The notes under the pieces are model-generated. The model had not been told where the DNA came from and did not search any database. It saw only the letters and a list, made by a program, of their open reading frames with translations. From positions 186,001 to 250,000 of the forward strand of contig NZ_RKMB01000005.1 of assembly GCF_003797765.1 (NCBI RefSeq): DNA of 64,000 nucleotides, in the 5' to 3' direction. The translations under genes were made by a program, and so were the position numbers. Source of the DNA: Ramlibacter sp. WS9. GTDB taxonomy: Bacteria; Pseudomonadota; Gammaproteobacteria; Burkholderiales; Burkholderiaceae_C. This document shows, piece by piece, positions 8,734 to 22,799 of the stretch; positions within the stretch are counted from its first letter, which is position 1, and the number at the start of each line of letters is the position of its first letter.

Positions 8734-11106
8734 TCACCCGCGGTGGCGCGCCGATGCATTCCGCAGCGTGACGGCGATGCGACCCATCGCGCGGCGAGCC
8801 GATGACAGTCCCTCCATGTACACATGATGGATGCGCTCGTTTTGTTTCAGGCGAAGACGCAAAGCGATCGCGAACACCACGGCACGAATGGCAACGCGCG
8901 CCATCAGTCCACTGGGCAAGCCGACGACTTCGTGCAGCGGTTCGAAGCTGTCGGCCAACTCGACCTTGTATCGCTCGTTGCCGCCTAGGAACTCGACCCG
9001 CCGCACGCCCTCCGACGAGGCGTCTGCGATGGCTTGCAGCAGCGTGACCTGCCCCGGCGAAAATCGCGCCAGCTCGGGATCGAACGCGAGGCGATGAACG
9101 TACATGGTCTTGCCCATGACGAACCAATAGTGGAACGCGACCGGTCGCCCGTCGAGGCGAAGCGTCAGTATCCGGGCCGCGCCCTGCGCGGCCAGTGCGC
9201 GTGCGGCGTCGCGGTGGAAATTGTGCCGCTCGGCCAAGCCGAAGGTCGAGCCGTCGGGGCGGCCTTGCCAGCGCAGCGCGTGGATTTCGAACGCGTGCTC
9301 CAGTTCGGCCGCAACCTCGTCGGGCGTGCGCGCCGTCGTCCAGCCGACGACGCCGAGCGTCGCCAGCTGCCGCAACCGGCGGCGATGGAGATTGCGCTTC
9401 TTGGACGAGATGCGGGCGTCGTAGACCGCGGCCCAGCCGTTGGGCATCCGCAGCACCGGCGCGTCGACCCGCGGCAGGACCGTGAGATCACCTTGCGCCG
9501 CAAGCCGCGACAGCACGCCCCCACTCGGTGCCCCGAACACGTCCAGGTAGTCGAACGGCAGCCGTGAAACACGGTCCAGCAGTGCGCGGGCTATTGACCC
9601 ATCATCGTCGCGCTCGACCAGGAAGTCGCCCAGCGCGCTCTCATGGCCGCCCAGCAGACGGCAGACCCGCAGGCCGCGGTGCCTGCGGATGAACATCGGC
9701 GCCACACCGACCATCGTGGACCCCCTTGTGGCGGTCACCACCGCCAGCGTGGCCCCTGCACCAAAGTGCCGCCACCATGCTGTTACCCATTCATGCAGCA
9801 GGAACGGGCTGGGACGCTTGGCCGCAAGCACAAGGCGGTTCCAGTTGGGTCCCAGAGCACCGAGGCCATCGGCGTCGGAGACGACGGCCAGCGTCAGGTC
9901 ATCGTGCGTTCCGGCGGCCGCTGTTGCGCTTTTTTGTGGTTCTGCGCGGGTCGCACCCAGCCGGGGTCGGTGTGCCAGTGTTTTCCTGGCTGTACCGGCC
10001 GCCAGCCGGACGAGAAAGCGCGCCCATCGATTGGCGCGCCAGGGCAGGCCTTCATCGGTCGAAATCGAGCGGAGACTGAACGCCGCCTTGAAGGAACGGT
10101 GGTCGCAGGCGATCTTGACCGGATCGGAATAGAAGGACGCGAGCTTCCGGGTGCCCATGCCTTCCGACGCCATCCAGAGGGGGACGTGGACGTTGCACAG
10201 CCGCTCCACATCGGTCAGAACCTTGTCGGCGCCGGTGCCGGCGGCAGGGCAGGAAGTGGCGAATGCGTCGCCGACCAGCACGATGCCGGGCTGAAGAAAC
10301 CCTTGCGTGACATAAAGGTCCGCGGGCCGAATCTTGACTGGGCCGGCAACTTGCGCGCGGCCAATGCATTTCCCCAGCCGCGGCATGACCGAGAGCAACG
10401 CCGGCAGGGGCTGTTCGCGCATGTCTCGCAGCCACGGATCGCCGATGTCCCGATAGACCATGAGATTGCCGTGCATGGCCGGACCGATCGGGAACAGGGT
10501 GAGGTACGCGAGGCGGTCCGCAGCACGTTCCGGGTAATAGGTGAGAGCGCGGAAGTCAAAGCTTGCCCGTCCCACTGGCGTCAAGTCGAATGCGAGCGTG
10601 ATGGAATGGCACTTGCTGACGTCTACGCGCGTCATTCCGAGCGTCTGACGCAAGCCGCTGTTGAGGCCGTTCGCGATGATGACCAGCCGCGCGGAAATTG
10701 AATCGCCGCTCGCAAGGGTCACCAGTTGAAGGTCGGGACTGTTCGCGATCGCCTGGACTTTCCCGCAGATGAATGTCGTGCCTTTCGGGATGGTGGCACG
10801 TACCGTGTTGACCAGGGTGTCGTAGAGGATGCCGTGCTGGTCGCCGGGGCGTTTCTCGACAACGCGGCCGAAGCGCGCAACCCAGCATTCGCCGTCGAAT
10901 GTCGCGGCCGGCAGAACCAGCTCGGCGAGGCCTGTCCGCCGCAAGATTGCGACCTGTCCCGCGTCAAGCTTCTCACAGCGAAGATCGGGTGGGTAGACCG
11001 CGTGCGGATCGACCAGGACGACATCGAATCCGGCCCGCCCCAGCATTGCCGTGGCCGTCGAGCCAGCAAGCCCGCCGCCGACGACCACGATGTCGGTGTT
11101 GCGCAT
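8734..11106 (-). CDS. FAD-dependent oxidoreductase fused to a GNAT acyltransferase
   Basis: 790-aa two-domain protein in one uninterrupted frame. Residues about 1-390 form a PHBH/halogenase-like flavoprotein: dinucleotide motif VVGGGLAGSTATAMLGRAG at the N-terminus, then GDAFATSCPAAGTGADKVL, the family GD motif that contacts FAD ribose. A polar Ala/Thr-rich linker (about 395-425) leads to a CelD/BioF2-like GNAT domain (about 430-770: KKRNLHRRRLRQLA, HALRWQGRPDGSTFG, RLDGRPVAFHYWFVMGKTMYVHRLAFDPELARFSPG). The true start is ATG at 11104-11106 (MRNTDIVV); upstream in-frame sequence overlaps the ATP-grasp gene. Probably modifies a sugar or lipid precursor of the exopolysaccharide; substrate unknown. 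Confidence 0.78.
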   Translation of the reverse strand: MRNTDIVVVGGGLAGSTATAMLGRAGFDVVLVDPHAVYPPDLRCEKLDAGQVAILRRTGLAELVLPAATFDGECWVARFGRVVEKRPGDQHGILYDTLVNTVRATIPKGTTFICGKVQAIANSPDLQLVTLASGDSISARLVIIANGLNSGLRQTLGMTRVDVSKCHSITLAFDLTPVGRASFDFRALTYYPERAADRLAYLTLFPIGPAMHGNLMVYRDIGDPWLRDMREQPLPALLSVMPRLGKCIGRAQVAGPVKIRPADLYVTQGFLQPGIVLVGDAFATSCPAAGTGADKVLTDVERLCNVHVPLWMASEGMGTRKLASFYSDPVKIACDHRSFKAAFSLRSISTDEGLPWRANRWARFLVRLAAGTARKTLAHRPRLGATRAEPQKSATAAAGTHDDLTLAVVSDADGLGALGPNWNRLVLAAKRPSPFLLHEWVTAWWRHFGAGATLAVVTATRGSTMVGVAPMFIRRHRGLRVCRLLGGHESALGDFLVERDDDGSIARALLDRVSRLPFDYLDVFGAPSGGVLSRLAAQGDLTVLPRVDAPVLRMPNGWAAVYDARISSKKRNLHRRRLRQLATLGVVGWTTARTPDEVAAELEHAFEIHALRWQGRPDGSTFGLAERHNFHRDAARALAAQGAARILTLRLDGRPVAFHYWFVMGKTMYVHRLAFDPELARFSPGQVTLLQAIADASSEGVRRVEFLGGNERYKVELADSFEPLHEVVGLPSGLMARVAIRAVVFAIALRLRLKQNERIHHVYMEGLSSARRAMGRIAVTLRNASARHRG

Positions 11107-14352: not shown

Positions 14353-14394
14353 AGGACAATTTGCCTATCCAGTTCGGTGCAGCACTCCCATGCG
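14353..14394 (+). promoter_or_regulatory. Shared 42-bp element, copy C (upstream of the deacetylase-flippase gene)
   Basis: Same element as copies A and B, here on the plus strand: begins AGGACAATTT, contains GCCTATC and CGGT, ends CCCATGCG. 28 of 42 positions match copy A and 27 match copy B. The ATG at 14390, the upstream end of the long open frame, is inside the conserved 3' block and is therefore unlikely to be the real start. Confidence 0.72.
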
Positions 14395-14416
14395 GGTGCT
14401 CGGGAGCCACGTCAAT

Positions 14417-16804
14417 ATGGACGGCGTGGACATTTGCGAGACTCGCATGCAACTCCCCCGACAGGCAGGCCTGGACAGGATCAGTTTCCCTTCAGGGGCT
14501 GGCGGCAGGGTGGGCACGTTCATGCTCAGCTTCGACTGCGAAGGCAAGTGGGGCCTGACCGACTGCCTCACCGAGCGCCACCAGCAGCTCTACACGACGT
14601 CCAACCTCGAAGCGATCTACTGGCGGCTCACGTCGCTTCTGCGGAAGTACGGCATCGATGCCACGTTCGCATTCACTGCGGCGTTTTCCCTGACCGCTGA
14701 GCGTTTCGACCGGCTGCGGCCGGAAATGGAGGAACTCAGGACTCGAGCGCAACCGTGGATCGGTCGTGCACTGGCCGCCATAGAAAAAGACAAGGGGCAA
14801 GGCTGGTTCGGGCCGTACTGTTTCGACATGGTGCGTGAGCCAGGTTGCCACGAGATCGCTTCTCATGGCTTTTCGCATCTGCCGTGGCGAGCTTCCTATG
14901 CCACCCGGGCCGCGCTGGATGCCGAGCTGGCCATGTGCCGCAGGGTCCCGGCCTTCAGCGACGGCTCCGTCAGCACATTCGTGTTCCCCCGCAACCAGGT
15001 TGCTCACCAGGACCTGCTGGCGGAACATGGATTTACCGCATACCGCGAAAAGCGAACCTTCAGCAGTCGGGCGGCCAATTTAGCCAGTGAGTTCAACCTG
15101 CTGTCGCCGAGCGAAGACTTCAACTGGAACGAAAACTGGAACGACAAGATTCCGATCGCGCTCCCAGCTGGCCGCTTCCTGAACTGGAGGCATGGGCTCA
15201 GGCGAAGCGTTCCGGCGGCCGTTACCGTTCGTCGCTGGCAAAACATGCTCCGGGACGCGGCGAGTGGCGGCGGCATCGTTCACGCGTGGACACACCCCGA
15301 AAACTTCGTCGACGGGCATGACATGTTCCAGATGCTCGAGGAGATTCTCCGTTTCGTCGCCGACGAGCGCGAGGCGGGGCGCCTGCACGTGCTGACGAAC
15401 ACGCAGTTCGTGGCGAGGACCGAACGGTTGCCGTCGCTGCAGCCTGTCTCCTTCAGCCCATCACCCGACCCATGCGTGGCCCATGCCTCGCATACCGAAG
15501 CACCTGCGCCTGTGACATCTGCGCCTGCGACACGTGCGCCCGTGAGCGCCGTCGCGCAATCAGCGCACTGGGAAGTCTCGGAGGTAGCGCTCAGCCAGAC
15601 CATTTTCGCGGCGATGCAGGTCTATATCCCCTGGCTTGCGGCGTCGAAGGCGCCTCTGGCCGACCTCGCGACGCTCGCCCTGGCGCAATCGATCGTCTGG
15701 CCGCTCGCGATGATCGCGCAATTGCAGTTGCGCACCATCTATGTGGTCCAGGGCGAGAGGTCTCTGCTCCCGCTCTTCGTGCAGCTGCGGCTGGCCGGAT
15801 GCGTGTTCCTCGTCGCTTGCGCAGCGATCGCCACCGGCATGCTCCACTCCGGTCCTCTTCTGCTCTCTCTGGCCGTGGCGCTGGCGCTCATCAAGTGCGT
15901 GGAAAACGTGGCAGACATCATGCACGGCGAACTGCAGCGAGCGATGGAGGTGAGCCGCGGTGCGCGATCCCAGACCTATCGGTGCGCGATCTTCATCAGC
16001 GTATACACCGTCGGCATGGTGTCCGGCGGGCAACTCTTGCTCTCGCTCGTCGCCGCCGCAGCGGCAATGGCCGCTTGGGTTGTGGTGGTCGACATGCGGC
16101 CCCGCAGGTTCTGGCGCGATCTCCTGACCCAGGGCGGCAATCTGGATCAGGTAGGCCCGACGCTCAAGGCCGGTCTTTCCCTCTCGACGGCCCTGGCGTT
16201 CTCGTCGCTTTCCGTGATGGTCGGGCGTTGGGCTGCCGTGCGGGCGGGTGACACGGAGGTGCTGGCGGCAACCGCCCTGGCCGGGACCATGGCAAGTATC
16301 GTCGCCGTCGTGCTGGTCGCGACGCAGCAGTATTCTTTCACGCCGGCGCGGGCGCAACTCGACGCCGGGGGCATGCCGGCCTTCCGGGCCTGGTGCAGGG
16401 CCGTCACGTGGCGGCTGCACGTGGCGTTCGCAGGCCTCACGCTGGCCTGGGTTGCTGCCGCTGTTCTGGTGTATTACTTCGGTCTGCCTGTGCCTGGCCA
16501 TCACCTCGGCATCGGACTGCAACATACCGTTGTCGTGCTCGCAGGGTGTTTCCTGGCGGGGGGATGGCTGAGCGTGCTCTGCTTCGCGGACATATTGCTG
16601 CAGTACCTGATGCGGCGCCATGGAACCATCCTCTTCATTGCCATGATGCAGGTGGCTGCGGCCGCTGCGGCGAGCATGCTGCTGTACCCGTTGATGGGAT
16701 GGATCGCCATCGGTATCGCCGAGCTTGTTCGCGGGCTCACGTTCATCGTCGCCGTCAGATACACCTCCCGGCTGCTGGAAGCCGATGGCGGAGCCAGCAC
16801 CTAG
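14417..16804 (+). CDS. Polysaccharide deacetylase fused to a flippase-like membrane domain
   Basis: About 795 aa in a single frame. The N-terminal third is a NodB-type polysaccharide deacetylase: MLSFDCEGKWGL (metal-binding Asp region), GIDATFAFTAAF, HEIASHGFSHLPW (HxxxxH-type metal histidines), STFVFPRNQ and GGIVHAWTHPEN. A Pro/Ala/Thr linker (APAPVTSAPATRAPVS) joins it to about 400 residues with some ten hydrophobic segments resembling Wzx/MATE-type exporters (AAMQVYIPWLA, then LATLALAQSIVWPLAMIAQ and others). The start is uncertain: ATG 14417 has GGGAG ten bases upstream, ATG 14447 and 14522 are alternatives, and ATG 14390 lies within the conserved element. The fusion suggests coupling of lipid-linked glycan deacetylation with its translocation; this is inference. 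A GT4 gene follows 26 bp downstream. Confidence 0.75.
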   Translation: MDGVDICETRMQLPRQAGLDRISFPSGAGGRVGTFMLSFDCEGKWGLTDCLTERHQQLYTTSNLEAIYWRLTSLLRKYGIDATFAFTAAFSLTAERFDRLRPEMEELRTRAQPWIGRALAAIEKDKGQGWFGPYCFDMVREPGCHEIASHGFSHLPWRASYATRAALDAELAMCRRVPAFSDGSVSTFVFPRNQVAHQDLLAEHGFTAYREKRTFSSRAANLASEFNLLSPSEDFNWNENWNDKIPIALPAGRFLNWRHGLRRSVPAAVTVRRWQNMLRDAASGGGIVHAWTHPENFVDGHDMFQMLEEILRFVADEREAGRLHVLTNTQFVARTERLPSLQPVSFSPSPDPCVAHASHTEAPAPVTSAPATRAPVSAVAQSAHWEVSEVALSQTIFAAMQVYIPWLAASKAPLADLATLALAQSIVWPLAMIAQLQLRTIYVVQGERSLLPLFVQLRLAGCVFLVACAAIATGMLHSGPLLLSLAVALALIKCVENVADIMHGELQRAMEVSRGARSQTYRCAIFISVYTVGMVSGGQLLLSLVAAAAAMAAWVVVVDMRPRRFWRDLLTQGGNLDQVGPTLKAGLSLSTALAFSSLSVMVGRWAAVRAGDTEVLAATALAGTMASIVAVVLVATQQYSFTPARAQLDAGGMPAFRAWCRAVTWRLHVAFAGLTLAWVAAAVLVYYFGLPVPGHHLGIGLQHTVVVLAGCFLAGGWLSVLCFADILLQYLMRRHGTILFIAMMQVAAAAAASMLLYPLMGWIAIGIAELVRGLTFIVAVRYTSRLLEADGGAST

Positions 16805-16830
16805 CGGCGCGGACAGGCACTGGAGCTCAG

Positions 16831-17946
16831 ATGCGCGTCGTTCTCGTCATCACCAAGGGTGAACTCGGAGGGGCCCAGACGCATGTCGCCGAACTTTGCG
16901 GGGCGCTTCGCCATCGCTGCGACTTCCTCGTGCTGATCGGCGGAGGCGGGCGGTCGCCCCTGGGTGATGCGCTGACCTCGATGAACATACGCGTCGAATC
17001 CATTCCGGGGCTCAGCAATGCGGTCTCGGTGCGTTCGCTGCTCGCCAGCGTGCACCAGATCGCGGACCATGCCAAGTCCTGGCGTGCCGACGTGATCCAC
17101 GTCCACAGTGCCGTGGCAGCGGCCGTCGGCCGCATGGCCGGCTGGCTTGCAGCCATTCCTGTCGTCTACACGGTGCACGGTTTCGCGTTCAAGCCGCAGG
17201 TCCCACGGGTTCGCCGGCTTTGTGCTTTTACTGGAGAACGGGTCCTGGCACCCTTCAGCAGCCATGTCATCTGCGTCTCGCACGCCGAACGGGAGCTCGC
17301 AATGAAGCTGGGGATGCCAGAGGCGCGGGTCAGCGTGATCTCCAACGGTGTTTCCGACAGCGCCCTGCGTGCACAGCCGTCGAGCTTGCCGGCAACGCTG
17401 ATCATGGTCGCCCGTATGGCCGCTCCGAAGCGACACGATCTGCTGTTGCAGGCCCTGAGTGTCCTGCAGGCACGCGGCATGGCCCCGCCCCAGACAGTGC
17501 TGGCCGGTGGTGGGCCGCTGCTGGCGAAATGGCGCGAAGCAGCCACGGCGTTCGGCCTGTCCTGCGTGAGCTTCTGCGGTGATATCTCCGATGTCGATGC
17601 CAGGCTCGCTCAATGCCAGGTGTTCGTCCTGCTGTCCGATCACGAGGGCCAACCGATTTCGGTGATCGAAGCCATGCGAGCCGGCCTGCCCATCGTCGCC
17701 AGTGACCTTCCGGGAATTCGCGCCCAGATCACGCCCGGGGTAGAGGGCCTCCTCACCAGCCATGAGCCTGAAGCGATCGCGGACGCCGTGGAGCGGATGG
17801 TCTCCGATCCGCTTCTGAGGGCGCGCCTGGGAGCCGCGGCACGGCGCAGGTTCGAAAGCGAGTTCAGTGCCGCCTGCATGGCAGAGCAGGTCGAACAGGT
17901 CTATGGCCGATCGGCGAGGAAGGCAAGTCTGCTGCTTCAGGGATGA
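16831..17946 (+). CDS. Glycosyltransferase family 4 (GT-B)
   Basis: 371 aa. N-terminal GT-B half with KGELGGAQTHVAELCGAL and IHVHSAVAAAVGR; C-terminal half with LIMVARMAAPKRHDLLLQAL (nucleotide-sugar-binding start), FVLLSDHEGQPISVIEAMRAGLPIVASDLPGIR (the EX7E motif region) and a DGLL-like VEGLLTS. Transfers a sugar from a nucleotide donor to the lipid-linked repeat unit, cytoplasmic face. ATG 16831 has TGGAG five bases upstream. The 3' end overlaps the convergent initiating-transferase gene by 10 bp. Confidence 0.88.
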   Translation: MRVVLVITKGELGGAQTHVAELCGALRHRCDFLVLIGGGGRSPLGDALTSMNIRVESIPGLSNAVSVRSLLASVHQIADHAKSWRADVIHVHSAVAAAVGRMAGWLAAIPVVYTVHGFAFKPQVPRVRRLCAFTGERVLAPFSSHVICVSHAERELAMKLGMPEARVSVISNGVSDSALRAQPSSLPATLIMVARMAAPKRHDLLLQALSVLQARGMAPPQTVLAGGGPLLAKWREAATAFGLSCVSFCGDISDVDARLAQCQVFVLLSDHEGQPISVIEAMRAGLPIVASDLPGIRAQITPGVEGLLTSHEPEAIADAVERMVSDPLLRARLGAAARRRFESEFSAACMAEQVEQVYGRSARKASLLLQG

Positions 17947-20375
17947 TGTTTGGCGAATCTCACGGGCGCGCGCGGGACCGGTGCGCGGCGCGGGCTATCG
18001 GGACTCGAGCGGCGGTTGAACGAAAACACACAGACAGCAAGGATGATCCAGAAGTGGCGCCAGTGCAGCGTGTCGACGACGGCTGCGTTCACCAGCGCGC
18101 CCGCCAGAAGCGCGAATGCGCATATGAAGGCTGGGTGCAACCGGCGTCCGCCCATGCATTCCTGCAGTGCGTGTGCAGCCAGCAGAAGCAGGAAGACCGA
18201 GAAAAGAGTCAGAGCGACGGGGCCGTTCTCGGCCCAGATGCGCACGTAGGTATTGTGCGGATCCCACCCCGCGAGATAGTGGACTACCTCTCCCGGTCCG
18301 ACACCGGCGGGGTAGCGCAAGCCCAATTCGATGGCCTCTTGCGCATTTGCAAAGCGATAGGTGTCGTACTCCTGAAGCTGCATGCGGCTGCTGTAGAGGT
18401 CGAACGCATCCTGGTCATGGTCGATCAGCAGACCCGCGGCAGGGATTGCCACGGCTGCAGCGAGCAGTGCCGCGCACGCGAGCATTGCCTTTTGCCGTAC
18501 GCTGGAGAAAGCCCCGTACATGGCCAGGACGATGGCCAGGTTGGCCCACGCCGCGCGAGAGGCGGTGGCGATGACCCCCGCCGCGCAAATGACGGCGAAC
18601 AGGACGAACAGGACGGTTTTCGCGCCGCGTCGACGTCCGGCTGCTTCAAGAAAGATCACTATCGCCGGGATGAGGTACGGCCCGAAGACGTTCGGATCCT
18701 TGAAGAAGATCCTCGGCCTGCCTTCCGATTGCAGCATGTCCGCCATCGGGGCGATTGCAGGGTGCAGCATGATGATTGCGAGTGCAGCGCAGACCAGTGC
18801 GGCGCCGGCATAGCCCGCAAGGAAGGCGGAAAACCTGACATCTCCTTGCCCGTGGAGCTGGCCCAGGTGGAGGGCGATCATGATCAGCATCGTGGTCACT
18901 CCGGCATAGAAAGCCGAGCTGGCCGGGCTGCGCGCTTGCAGAGCGACAGGAACGAACTGCAGGATCAAGAACAGGCCCAACAGCACCAGCATCGTGGCTG
19001 TCATCGGGCCCGCCAGCCGCCACCATGGGTCTCTCATGTTCCTGGCGGCATGGACGAGCACGAGGAACAGCGCCAGAACCTCGAACGGGGCCGGCTCGAT
19101 GAACGTAATGCACGAGCTTGCGCCCAGCAGGAGATACATCAAACGCATCATCCGCGGAACGGGCTTGCCGCCGCGCAGAGGCATCGCAGGCCTCGGACGA
19201 GAGGGCCGCGCCGGCCGTGCGCTGGCCTGAGGGCGATGGGGTGTCGGCGACATTGGCGACATGGTCGTTTCAGGTTGCGGCCAAGGCCGTGCCCGAGATT
19301 GCGACGGGAACGGCAACCAGCGGAACTTCGCAAGGCGAGTATAGACACGCGAATAGCCCAGAGCGGCGAGCGCAAGGCCCGTCACCAGCATGGGAGTGTC
19401 TTGGGGAAAGACGGCGGCCCACGCAGCTGTCGTGCCTGTGTACAGCCATGCGACGGGACTGGTCATCGAGTTCTGCAGGCGTTGCGGCCAGCCGGGCAGC
19501 CGGATTCTCACCAGCCTGCGGTAGACGAGCATGTGCATGTGCACCCGGTCGGGCTGGCCTGGGCTCGAGCCGGCCCGTCGGCTTTTCCGATAGAACGAGA
19601 AGGCCACTTCGAGTACCGGGTAGGCACAGGCGAGCAGCGGACTCCACGGGGAAACCTGTGGGTTTCGCACTGCGAGCATGACCGCGGCCCAACCGACGAG
19701 GAAGCCGAGCAGGTAGGCGCCGCCGTCCCCCAGGAATATCCTGCCCGAAGGCCAGTTCACGGCGAGGAAGCCCAGCACGGACGCGGCGATCAGATAGCAC
19801 GCCCACGCGAGTTGGGTGTCACCGACCTGTGCCGCGATGAGACCCAACGCCGTCAGGATGATGACGACGACGCCGGCGGCCAGGCCGTTGAAGCCGTCAA
19901 TGATGTTGATGGCGTTGGCCAGGCCGCCGACGCAGAATGCGGTGAACATCACCGCGAAGGGCGTGAATGCGAGCAGCGTGTCCAGCGCCGCGATGCCGGT
20001 GCGTTGCAACATCGCACCGGTGAGCAGGCAGGCCAGCACGCCACTGGAGAGGGTCGCCAGCAGGCGCTCCAGCACACCGACCTTCTTCGTCAGGTCTTCC
20101 ATGAGTCCCACCGCGAAGGCGGGAATCGCCGATATGAGCATGAGTGCCAGCAGCGACGCCGTCGAACGCGGTGTGATCGCCGCGACAATCACCATTGCAA
20201 CCAGGATGGCCGACCCACCGATGCGCGGTGTCGGTGCGGTGTGGTACTTCTGCAGGCCGATGGTGCTGTCCAGCGTCATCGATCCGTGCCAGCGCTGCGT
20301 GTTGACGAGCACCAGGCTCACGCACAGGCTCGAAGCGAAGCCGACAGCCGCCGCAAGTCCGAGAGTGGAAGGCAT
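17937..20375 (-). CDS. WecA/MraY-type sugar-phosphate transferase fused to an O-antigen ligase/polymerase-like domain
   Basis: 812 aa, one frame. Residues about 1-340 are a WecA/MraY polyprenyl-phosphate glycosyl-1-phosphate transferase: TPRIGGSAI, GLMEDLTKKVGVLERL (acidic pair region), ANAINIIDGFNGLAAG and FLGDGGAYLLGFLVGW. After a Pro/Arg-rich linker (about 345-395) a second multi-span domain of about 410 aa resembles Wzy/WaaL: FKDPNVFGPYLIPAIVIFLEA, TASRAAWANLAIVL, a long periplasmic loop with YRFANAQEAIELGLRYPAGVGPG and the conserved DPHNTYVRIWAENGP. It would put initiation and polymerisation/ligation on one polypeptide. Internal Met codons in the linker could allow separate translation. 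Ligase versus polymerase cannot be told apart. Confidence 0.8.
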   Translation of the reverse strand: MPSTLGLAAAVGFASSLCVSLVLVNTQRWHGSMTLDSTIGLQKYHTAPTPRIGGSAILVAMVIVAAITPRSTASLLALMLISAIPAFAVGLMEDLTKKVGVLERLLATLSSGVLACLLTGAMLQRTGIAALDTLLAFTPFAVMFTAFCVGGLANAINIIDGFNGLAAGVVVIILTALGLIAAQVGDTQLAWACYLIAASVLGFLAVNWPSGRIFLGDGGAYLLGFLVGWAAVMLAVRNPQVSPWSPLLACAYPVLEVAFSFYRKSRRAGSSPGQPDRVHMHMLVYRRLVRIRLPGWPQRLQNSMTSPVAWLYTGTTAAWAAVFPQDTPMLVTGLALAALGYSRVYTRLAKFRWLPFPSQSRARPWPQPETTMSPMSPTPHRPQASARPARPSRPRPAMPLRGGKPVPRMMRLMYLLLGASSCITFIEPAPFEVLALFLVLVHAARNMRDPWWRLAGPMTATMLVLLGLFLILQFVPVALQARSPASSAFYAGVTTMLIMIALHLGQLHGQGDVRFSAFLAGYAGAALVCAALAIIMLHPAIAPMADMLQSEGRPRIFFKDPNVFGPYLIPAIVIFLEAAGRRRGAKTVLFVLFAVICAAGVIATASRAAWANLAIVLAMYGAFSSVRQKAMLACAALLAAAVAIPAAGLLIDHDQDAFDLYSSRMQLQEYDTYRFANAQEAIELGLRYPAGVGPGEVVHYLAGWDPHNTYVRIWAENGPVALTLFSVFLLLLAAHALQECMGGRRLHPAFICAFALLAGALVNAAVVDTLHWRHFWIILAVCVFSFNRRSSPDSPRRAPVPRAPVRFAKHHP

Positions 20376-20417
20376 CGCGCGCTTTCCGGGTCATGGAGGG
20401 TCGGTCGGAGGGTGCGG

Positions 20418-22640
20418 TCAGTGCGCACTGAGGTATTCGGAACTGCCGTAGCTGTAGATGGCGTTGCGCCGCTTGGAGCCATCCACTCCCGTGTAGATCA
20501 CCCCGTCCACTTCAATGCCGCGCTGTGAAAGGCGCTTTTCGGACTCGTGCAGTTCGCGCAGGCTGGTGACTTCCGCGCGGGCGATCAGGAACACGGCGCC
20601 TGCCCACTGGGCCAGGATCGCGGCCTCCGAGGTGGCCAGTACCGGGGGGGTGTCGAGAACGACATAGTCATAGGCCGCCGAAGCTTCGGCCAACAGGAGT
20701 TCGGCGGTACGGGTGGTCACCAGGTCCGCCGGAGTCGGCGTTGGGCTGCCTGCCGCAATGAAGTCGACGTTCGGAACCACGTTCCGGTGCACCGCATTGC
20801 CCAGACGCTTCAGGCCCATGAGCATGTCGCTCAGACCGGGAGCGGCCGGTACGCCGAAGGCGTCGTGCAAATGCCCCTTGCGCATGTCCGCATCGATGAT
20901 CAGCACCCTGCGCCCGGAGGCGGCGAGCACCGCGGCCAGGTTCATGCTGGTGAACGACTTGCCGATCCCATGAGTCGGGCCGGTGATCAGCACGATGTTG
21001 GAGCGTGCGGTGGGCATCTTGCGCTGCAGTGCCGTGCGCATGCTGCGCAAGCTTTCCACGGCTGGATCCTGGGGCGCGTGAAGGGCCAGGACGCGCGCAC
21101 CCCCGCGCGCGCCTTTTGCCGGGCGCGCGAGCAGCTTCTGGGCCTTGCTGAAAGGCACGGTGGTGAGCACGCTCATGGCCGAATGGCTCTCGATCCAGTC
21201 GGGCTCCTGCACGCCGCGGCGAACACTCTTGCGCAGCAGCGCGAACAGCACGCCGAGGACCATGCCGCCCGTTGTGCCGGCCGCAAGCAGCGCCGCAGGC
21301 ATCGGGCCGGCCGGCTCCTGCGGCGGCCATGCGGGGTCGACGACGCGTATGTTGGCAACTTTCCCGTCCTTGGCCAGCTGGATCTGTTGCGCGCTGTTGA
21401 GCAAGCTCACGTACAGGTCGGACTTGACCTTCAGTTCGCGCGACATGCCCAGCGTTTCCTGCTCTTTTGGGGGCAGCACCCTGATGCGCCGGTTGACGCT
21501 TCCCAGCTCCGCGGTGGCTGCGGTGATCTGGGCGTCCAGCGCTTGCATCCTGGGATGTTCATTCCCCAGGGCGTTGGCGGCCAGTTCGCGGCGCCTGGTC
21601 TGGAGTTCGTGCAGCGTCGTTTCCGCCCGTACCGACTGGTCGAGCGCGAGCTTGCCCTTCGCGGTAATTTCGAAGCCCGTGTTCCGGCTGCGGAAGCGAT
21701 TGAGTTTTGCCTCGGCCTGCGTGATCTCATTGCGCAGGTGTGGGAGCATGCCCTCGACGAATTCGAGCGCTCGTTCCGCTTCTGCGGTCTTGCGCTCCAG
21801 GTTTTGCCGCAGATAGGACTCGGCAATCTGGTTGACTGTCTTGGCGACCATCTCCGGGTCGCTGCCGGCCAGCCGCACGCGCAGCATGCCGGACTGCTTT
21901 CCCTGTTCCTCGATCTTGAGGCGCCGCTGCAGCTTCTCGATCACCGCGCTGCGCCCGAGCTTCTCCACCCTGAATTCGGCGCCGGAACGGCCGGCCACCG
22001 AAGCGACGAGTATCTGGCCCGTTCCCGTTCCCGTGCCGAAGTTTTCCAGCTTGCCGGGCGTGCCCTTGAGGACGAGCCGGTGAAGGGGGTCCCGCAGTTC
22101 GTAGCCGGTGGCCGTCAGGAGCACCGAGAACGGCTCTCCCTCGCGTTCGCGCGGCACGACGAATTTGGTGACCTGGATCGACTCATTGCCATGAACATAG
22201 CCGGTCGTCTCGAGAAAGCCGGGGCGGGAAGGCGCGGTCGCTCTGCGGCCCAGCCACTCGCCGATCACCGGCAGGTACCTCGGCCGTGCCGATATGTCCA
22301 GACCGAGGCGGTCCACCACGTCGAGCAGCAAGGGGCCCGAGCGCAGGATGCTGATCTCGGCCACGGCCGGCGAGCGATTCTCGAAGAGGCTGGCGGCCTC
22401 GGTGTAGGCACTGGCCATCCCCGCACTGGCGGCCTTGACTTCCTCGACCTGGACGAGGGCGGAAGCTTCGTAGGTGGGCGGCACGGCGACGATGTAGAGG
22501 AGCGCGGCGGCGATTCCGGCACACGTGATCGCCGCTATCGCCCACTTGCTGTCGCCCAAGGCGTCCATCACTTCGAGCAGGCTGCTTTCGCTTTGCCTCT
22601 CTACGTGCGCCGGTCTTACGTCCTGTTCGGAGAAATACAT
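20418..22640 (-). CDS. Wzc/GumC-type chain-length determinant with BY-kinase domain
   Basis: 740 aa inner-membrane protein controlling exopolysaccharide chain length and export. TM1 at about residues 33-55, a Wzz-type periplasmic region with coiled coil (ERKTAEAERALEFVEGMLPHLRNEITQAEAKL), TM2 near PMPAALLAAGTTGGMVLGVLFALL, then the bacterial tyrosine kinase: Walker A GPTHGIGKS, A' LIIDADMRKG, B YVVLDTPPV. The C-terminus is short with only a few tyrosines (IYSYGSSEYLSAH). ATG 22640 has GGAGG five bases upstream, so the longer open frame to 22787 is rejected. First gene of its unit; the shared 42-bp element lies 63 bp upstream. No Wza-type outer-membrane exporter is in the window. Confidence 0.88.
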   Translation of the reverse strand: MYFSEQDVRPAHVERQSESSLLEVMDALGDSKWAIAAITCAGIAAALLYIVAVPPTYEASALVQVEEVKAASAGMASAYTEAASLFENRSPAVAEISILRSGPLLLDVVDRLGLDISARPRYLPVIGEWLGRRATAPSRPGFLETTGYVHGNESIQVTKFVVPREREGEPFSVLLTATGYELRDPLHRLVLKGTPGKLENFGTGTGTGQILVASVAGRSGAEFRVEKLGRSAVIEKLQRRLKIEEQGKQSGMLRVRLAGSDPEMVAKTVNQIAESYLRQNLERKTAEAERALEFVEGMLPHLRNEITQAEAKLNRFRSRNTGFEITAKGKLALDQSVRAETTLHELQTRRRELAANALGNEHPRMQALDAQITAATAELGSVNRRIRVLPPKEQETLGMSRELKVKSDLYVSLLNSAQQIQLAKDGKVANIRVVDPAWPPQEPAGPMPAALLAAGTTGGMVLGVLFALLRKSVRRGVQEPDWIESHSAMSVLTTVPFSKAQKLLARPAKGARGGARVLALHAPQDPAVESLRSMRTALQRKMPTARSNIVLITGPTHGIGKSFTSMNLAAVLAASGRRVLIIDADMRKGHLHDAFGVPAAPGLSDMLMGLKRLGNAVHRNVVPNVDFIAAGSPTPTPADLVTTRTAELLLAEASAAYDYVVLDTPPVLATSEAAILAQWAGAVFLIARAEVTSLRELHESEKRLSQRGIEVDGVIYTGVDGSKRRNAIYSYGSSEYLSAH

Positions 22641-22703
22641 CTGAGCCTCCGCGCGGCCGCATGCGGGCCGCGTGCTCTTATTGGAACGTGCGGCGTCGCG
22701 CGC

Positions 22704-22745
22704 CGCATGGTAGGGGCATACCACTTCCGATAGGCGGAATGTCCT
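22704..22745 (-). promoter_or_regulatory. Shared 42-bp element, copy B (upstream of the BY-kinase gene)
   Basis: Minus-strand copy beginning AGGACATTCC, containing CCTATCGG and ending CCATGCG; 32 of 42 positions match copy A, 27 match copy C. It includes a dyad TGGTA-N6-TACCA and the near palindrome GGACATTCC. It ends 63 bp before the start codon at 22640. Confidence 0.75.
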
Positions 22746-22799
22746 TTCAAGCTCCCATTTGGCGTGAGTGTCGAGGTGCGCGCCCATGCTTGAGCAGGC

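Follow-up and report, generated by a model that had tools for sequence, protein, structure and literature searches.

Can the sugar transferase that begins a bacterial polysaccharide and the polymerase that lengthens it be one and the same protein? Initiation and polymerisation are the opposite ends of the Wzx/Wzy pathway and take place on opposite faces of the membrane; to our knowledge, it is not settled whether the two steps cooperate physically. The question is raised by a 64,000-nucleotide stretch of DNA from Ramlibacter sp. WS9 (contig NZ_RKMB01000005.1, positions 186,001 to 250,000; hereafter the window), where a preliminary description had placed an initiating glycosyl-1-phosphate transferase and a ligase/polymerase-like domain in one uninterrupted open reading frame (ORF) of an exopolysaccharide (EPS) locus. 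The coordinates given there match exactly one ORF, whose strand (minus) had been left out. Free of stops from 20375 down to 17937, it encodes 812 aa, with a WecA/MraY-type half, a polytopic phosphoglycosyl transferase (GPT), followed by a complete half of the Wzy/WaaL type (Table 1). A plus-strand ORF on the same stretch (17943-20528, 861 aa) was taken as its antisense shadow.

Both domains scored above their Pfam cut-offs: Glycos_transf_4 (PF00953) matched residues 78-234 (E 1.2e-29, 103.8 bits for a cut-off of 27) and Wzy_C (PF04932) residues 593-725 (E 3.7e-11, 43.5 bits for a cut-off of 31.7). At E <= 0.001 these were the only Pfam families in the protein, and the core of the monotopic phosphoglycosyl transferases (PGTs), Bac_transf (PF02397), was not among them. 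The motif NIIDGFNGLA starts at residue 157 of the product; FLGDGGAYLLGF follows in the same frame from residue 214, and so does DPHNTYVRIWAENGP, with the histidine at position 707. The third codon position has the highest G+C on both sides of the linker, again in one frame. Within the linker this is not the case at residues 361-390 (0.70/0.80/0.67 for the three positions), as expected because the sequence there is proline-rich.

Table 1. Features of the window discussed in the text.
Feature	Coordinates	Strand	Basis or remark
Fusion ORF: polytopic phosphoglycosyl transferase (GPT), linker, Wzy/WaaL-type polymerase	17937..20375	-	812 aa; Pfam
GPT half, residues 1-350	19326..20375	-	Pfam, structure model, conserved residues
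Linker, about residues 351-407	19155..19325	-	Composition, structure model
Internal ATG (residue 398), best candidate for a separate Wzy start	19182..19184	-	GAGG at 19191-19194 just upstream
Wzy half, residues 408-812	17937..19154	-	Pfam, structure model, motifs
Wzc-type chain-length regulator / tyrosine autokinase	20418..22787	-	42 nt upstream of the fusion, same strand
Glycosyltransferase (Glycos_transf_1 / Glyco_transf_4 domains)	16393..17946	+	Convergent; true start probably near 16.8 kb
Deacetylase-like ORF, 804 aa	14390..16804	+	Same cluster; weak polysaccharide-deacetylase match
ORF with partial FAD-binding match (197-261) and GNAT domain (761-907), 983 aa	8734-11685	-	Pfam

The same architecture was found once more. 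Sixty genomes of the genus were surveyed, 45 of which have a completeness of 90% or more and no more than 5% contamination. The fusion was present in two and a separate pair in one, with no match in the other 57; the Wzy half accordingly matched three genomes of the 60. The second fused copy, in genome G010, is a single ORF of 801 aa, whose GPT and Wzy halves are 59.0% and 50.1% identical to those of the window, while the linkers are not reliably alignable. It is because of this second copy and of the homology along both halves that the fusion is credible, and the architecture first described from the window thus stands: the fusion is a real, rare variant of known parts. In the third genome, G064, the two genes are adjacent and separate, the GPT gene stopping with TGA at 10704-10706 of locus L070 and the wzy ATG, preceded by GAGG and AGGA, following at 10720. 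The fusion most likely arose when two such adjacent, co-oriented genes, GPT then wzy, became joined; the separate genes of G064 may themselves be either ancestral or re-split. The three Wzy sequences form a clade (support 100/100), as do the three GPTs together with a fourth from G035, a genome without the Wzy half (95/99). The Wzy tree was restricted to hits with an alignment of 300 residues or more (28 rows), and 15 of 29 rows were used for the second GPT tree. Three of the 31 prepared relatives (L035, L052 and L056) were left out of alignment A4; alignment A3 was discarded because Wzy-only rows had been placed on GPT columns.

The N-terminal half has the features of a complete enzyme. Its model contains 11 long helices (our count from the listed elements), mostly with a predicted local distance difference test score (pLDDT) over 90; the full-length AlphaFold model has a mean pLDDT of 73.4 and a predicted TM-score (pTM) of 0.52. 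A Foldseek search with the full-length model matched MraY (9b70, E 4.3e-9, TMt 0.68) and also DPAGT1. E93/D94, N157, D160, D217, H279 and H281, residues with catalytic roles in this family, are invariant in GPT alignment A5 (25 rows; 3 of 25 relatives, L009, L017 and L018, were left out). The fold, the helix number and the conserved motifs are thus common to this half and to WecA, WbpL and MraY, all of PF00953. It differs from them in carrying a second full enzyme and in lying far below the WecA equivalog cut-off (TIGR02380, 98 bits against 326.05). The window's genome contains four PF00953 genes (contigs C125, C33, C136 and C98). By motif, that of the window alone shares its frame with a Wzy motif; the gene on C98, a 372-aa open frame, was missed by the motif pattern.

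The C-terminal half was poorly modelled in the full-length prediction because the alignment is thin there. Folded alone, with 31 sequences, it gave a confident model (pLDDT 88.3, pTM 0.89) with 12 membrane helices by our count. It carries KDPN at residue 559, Arg607, YDTYRF at 670, His707 within H[NSQ]X9G and HWRH at 771. The 12-helix WaaL-like fold and the H[NSQ]X9G motif are shared with the Wzy/WaaL superfamily (PF04932), and the KDPNVFG and HWRH motifs place this half in one subfamily with stand-alone Wzy proteins of Bacillota and Alphaproteobacteria, from which it differs by the GPT fused to its N-terminus. In a search of named genomes, the best relatives outside the genus were stand-alone Bacillota proteins of about 30% identity; the family sample contained none. 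Since the nearest outside relatives are found in Bacillota and the family sample is empty, horizontal acquisition of the Wzy half is suggested.

We favour the reading that the ORF is translated into one bifunctional inner-membrane protein, a GPT joined to a Wzy polymerase that links flipped repeat units on the periplasmic face, and we hold this to be probable. The full protein would most likely load the first sugar on undecaprenyl phosphate inside the cell and polymerise repeat units outside, its Wzy half acting on units already finished and flipped. WecA-like enzymes have 11 helices, with the N-terminus outside and the C-terminal end in the cytoplasm, and the N-termini of Wzy and WaaL proteins are cytoplasmic. 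Because the models contain 11 GPT and 12 Wzy helices, and given this usual topology, the linker and the N-terminus of the Wzy half are predicted to be cytoplasmic, so that both active sites would face their normal sides. Such a position is suited by the composition of the linker: residues 354-410 include 16 prolines and 10 lysines or arginines for a single acidic residue. Both halves are presumably active, and the full-length chain is presumably the main product. The fusion would then enforce a 1:1 stoichiometry and keep the uptake of the lipid carrier and its release at one location, and may couple the two steps catalytically.

A number of observations weigh against this reading. At the base composition of the locus, a 56-codon linker would be free of stops by chance with P = 0.33 in the window, and the corresponding value in G010 is 0.28. 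Moreover, the G010 copy comes from an assembly that is 76% complete and lies on a 6.1-kb contig. The GPT tree gives low support to a pair of the window and G010 (54/47), and in the Wzy tree G010 groups preferentially with G064 (94/62), although a clade of the window and G010 is not rejected by the approximately unbiased test (p-AU 0.29); the fusion may thus have occurred once or twice, and the trees do not settle which. A simple hydropathy scan gives only 8 + 8 membrane segments, so the helix counts rest on the models. Finally, the internal ATG at residue 398 has a plausible Shine-Dalgarno-like (SD-like) site of -5.9 kcal/mol, which makes two products possible.

This last point opens the alternative that the frame is continuous while two proteins are made, the GPT, either full-length or N-terminal, and besides it a Wzy protein started within the linker, with ATG 398 as the best candidate; the fusion would then be a passive consequence of the loss of the stop codon. 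The GAGG and the energy at this ATG are close to those of the unfused wzy start of G064 (-5.8 kcal/mol) and better than at 20 of the 22 gene starts scored in the window, the fusion's own start having -3.5 kcal/mol; moreover, the linker is predicted to be disordered (pLDDT about 43) and aligns poorly with that of G010. One such site is nevertheless unsurprising among the 8 in-frame ATG, GTG or TTG codons of the linker region searched, since across 117 internal codons the 5% quantile of the SD-like energy is -6.2 and the 25% quantile -4.9 kcal/mol. In G010 the equivalent ATG 412, just before the Wzy half, has no SD-like site (0.4 kcal/mol), the only strong site there being GTG 355 at the linker start (-9.6). 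We therefore consider two products unlikely, if worth keeping in mind. Far less probable still is an artefact in which a sequencing or assembly frameshift hides the stop of the GPT gene. Out-of-frame TGA (window) and TAA (G010) codons in the linkers would fit a stop shifted out of frame, but both halves are in one frame and the assemblies of two species would need the same type of error at the same junction; sequencing error is unlikely because a second species of the genus has the same fusion. The presence of the fusion in only two of the 60 genus genomes would also be in line with decay, or with a neutral by-product, one half being inactive. Both halves of the window protein, however, retain their conserved residues, at 50-59% identity per half to G010, and we regard this reading as very improbable.

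The other alternative concerns the activity of the C-terminal half, which could be a WaaL-type ligase that transfers the glycan to lipid A core or another acceptor, rather than a polymerase. PF04932 is named O-antigen ligase by Pfam, and WaaL (7tpg) was the only match at E <= 0.001 of a Foldseek search of the Protein Data Bank (PDB) with this half (E 3.3e-6). By VIA, the two aligned over 343 residues (Z 24.3, 4.3 Å), followed by FtsW/RodA (Z 11-14); the match to WaaL cannot discriminate between the activities because the 50 entries shown included no Wzy structure. At the sequence level, no PDB chain was recovered with a profile of the Wzy half. The RfaL/WaaL ligase model of NCBIfam (NF012031) was not reached (15 bits against a cut-off of 277), and the neighbouring gene is wzc, as in Wzx/Wzy EPS clusters. 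Sequence does not decide between polymerase and ligase, and the polymerase assignment rests on the neighbourhood: wzc, 42 nt upstream, and an EPS-type glycosyltransferase gene on the other side of the fusion favour Wzy over WaaL. The ligase is thus improbable in our view, and the half first called ligase/polymerase-like, correctly assigned to the Wzy/WaaL type, is by its context more probably Wzy. No flippase was matched, hence no wzx identified, among the ORFs of the cluster sent to Pfam.

How widespread is such a fusion? With a profile of the three Wzy sequences, the window's own was the only strong match among 399 order genomes, where the next best had E 1.6e-8, and the only match in 299 genomes of the family (limit 1e-10); these samples were drawn evenly and hardly sample the genus, neither G010 nor G064 being among the matches. 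With a 31-sequence profile at E <= 1e-15, matches were found in 14 of 369 class genomes and 51 of 398 phylum genomes, the window's included in each, and the best loci were examined. Tested by tblastn, 46 of 73 loci matched the Wzy half, three of these duplicating the place of another; a match to the GPT half as well was seen only at the window's own locus (L103). At the 45 remaining ones, which lie outside the genus and include the duplicated places, the stretch examined gave no hit with the GPT half, and neither did that of the 37 loci of the named-genome search, which extended up to 8 kb on each side. In a plasmid collection 107 records matched, but no match extended over 80% of the query, and in the 25 listed it was confined to the GPT half. 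A word search of open-licence papers found no description of a WecA/MraY-type enzyme fused to Wzy. All together, the fusion is rare, though not proved unique.

Several long frames were rejected as further fusions: G823 (728 aa, without Wzy) and G834 (a 651-aa frame) are upstream read-throughs, the PF00953 frames of G761 (557 aa) and G935 (592 aa) have another hydrophobic extension without the Wzy motif, and in the sequence retrieved for G795 (938 aa), G903 (787 aa) and G1378 (612 aa) nothing matched the GPT half. At loci L101 and L102, open frames of 557 and 592 aa combine PF00953 with a C-terminal extension that is long and hydrophobic, and in the phylum survey many of the top-scoring PF00953 matches, among the matches listed, have open frames of similar length. 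The PF00953 survey covered 299 genomes, and its figures are taken from the matches listed.

An unfused pairing of initiator and polymerase recurs elsewhere. At all 29 of the best non-window loci of the phylum sample (L120-L148, from 29 of the 50 other matching genomes, all of other classes than the window's), an open frame with a monotopic PGT motif ended directly upstream of wzy on the same strand, and the two never shared a frame. Pfam recovered Bac_transf (PF02397) in 7/7 proteins sent, six from these loci and one from a class locus. As a control, none of 19 weak Wzy_C matches from the order had a monotopic PGT upstream, these matches being partial and their upstream flank therefore shorter. 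The test is by motif, and related genomes are not independent. The arrangement is by no means general: it was seen at 3 of 16 class loci (two with cut flanks), and, among the loci of named genomes (L033-L069), at 10 of 12 in Alphaproteobacteria, 1 of 15 in Bacilli and 0 of 10 others. With 11 of 37 in total, it is mainly alphaproteobacterial and not a trait of the whole subfamily; for this reason the 29 phylum loci probably belong to Alphaproteobacteria. In these pairs, as in the window, a member of this Wzy subfamily is immediately preceded by the initiator, whereas theirs are separate genes with a Bac_transf initiator, and the window's pair is fused with an initiator of a different class. These data suggest that initiator and polymerase are neighbours in one class and that this neighbourhood returns in the genus of the window, there with an unrelated, polytopic initiator.

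We may tentatively go one step further, although we doubt that the data carry it that far: with its own polymerase attached covalently, a polytopic initiator could combine the loading of undecaprenyl phosphate and the release of undecaprenyl pyrophosphate in one protein at a fixed 1:1 ratio, the alphaproteobacterial PGT-wzy adjacency being its unfused counterpart with an unrelated class of initiator. If true, the initiator would be dedicated to one EPS pathway and the use of the carrier localised. Against such cooperation, section 2.4 of PMC9860679 describes a Rhizobium two-hybrid screen that had the Wzy protein PssT among its partners; the initiator PssA is reported there to interact with four glycosyltransferases, and no interaction with PssT is reported. 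Nevertheless, a natural fusion, a relative with separate genes and a recurrent initiator-wzy pair in another class make the question of cooperation testable. Polytopic PGTs are given as 'PGT only' in Table 1 of PMC10942596; the fusion, with Wzy_C in the same ORF, does not fit this description and would be an exception to that listing. Like the bifunctional monotopic PGTs (Bi-PGTs) described in the same source, it combines a PGT with another functional domain; it differs in that its initiator is polytopic and its partner a polymerase. Fusions of monotopic PGTs being known, what appears new here is a polytopic PGT joined to Wzy.

The genes around the fusion are partly conserved. All three loci combine wzc, the GPT and wzy sequences and a homologous glycosyltransferase gene, although in G010 the contig ends within wzc. 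They are consecutive and on one strand in G064 and G010. The window differs in that the counterparts of the glycosyltransferase and deacetylase-like genes lie on the strand opposite to wzc and the fusion, the 3' end of the glycosyltransferase gene overlapping the end of the fusion by 10 nt. Because of this difference in strand, the wzc-fusion block appears to be inverted relative to the glycosyltransferase/deacetylase-like block within window positions 14390-22787, by comparison with L070 (G064) and L071 (G010).

The preliminary description had seen two more fusions in this locus and had taken the three as a sign of selection for physically linked steps. In that form the argument finds no support: G064 keeps GPT and wzy separate in the same cluster. 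The supposed deacetylase-flippase fusion was not borne out either: the deacetylase match (20.4 bits) is below its cut-off of 23.1, and the second half of this ORF (15425-16801, plus strand) matched no Pfam family at E <= 1. Residues 42-345 of the whole ORF, in its first half, match a separate 352-aa gene of G064, followed there by a family-2 glycosyltransferase. In the claimed FAD-GNAT fusion, even the best FAD match is to an incomplete domain. Elsewhere in the window, a hint of a betaproteobacterial host comes from the plus-strand gene at 1172-2710: the closest entries in the plasmid collection to its 2-isopropylmalate synthase-like product are those of Neisseria and Caballeronia (64-70%).

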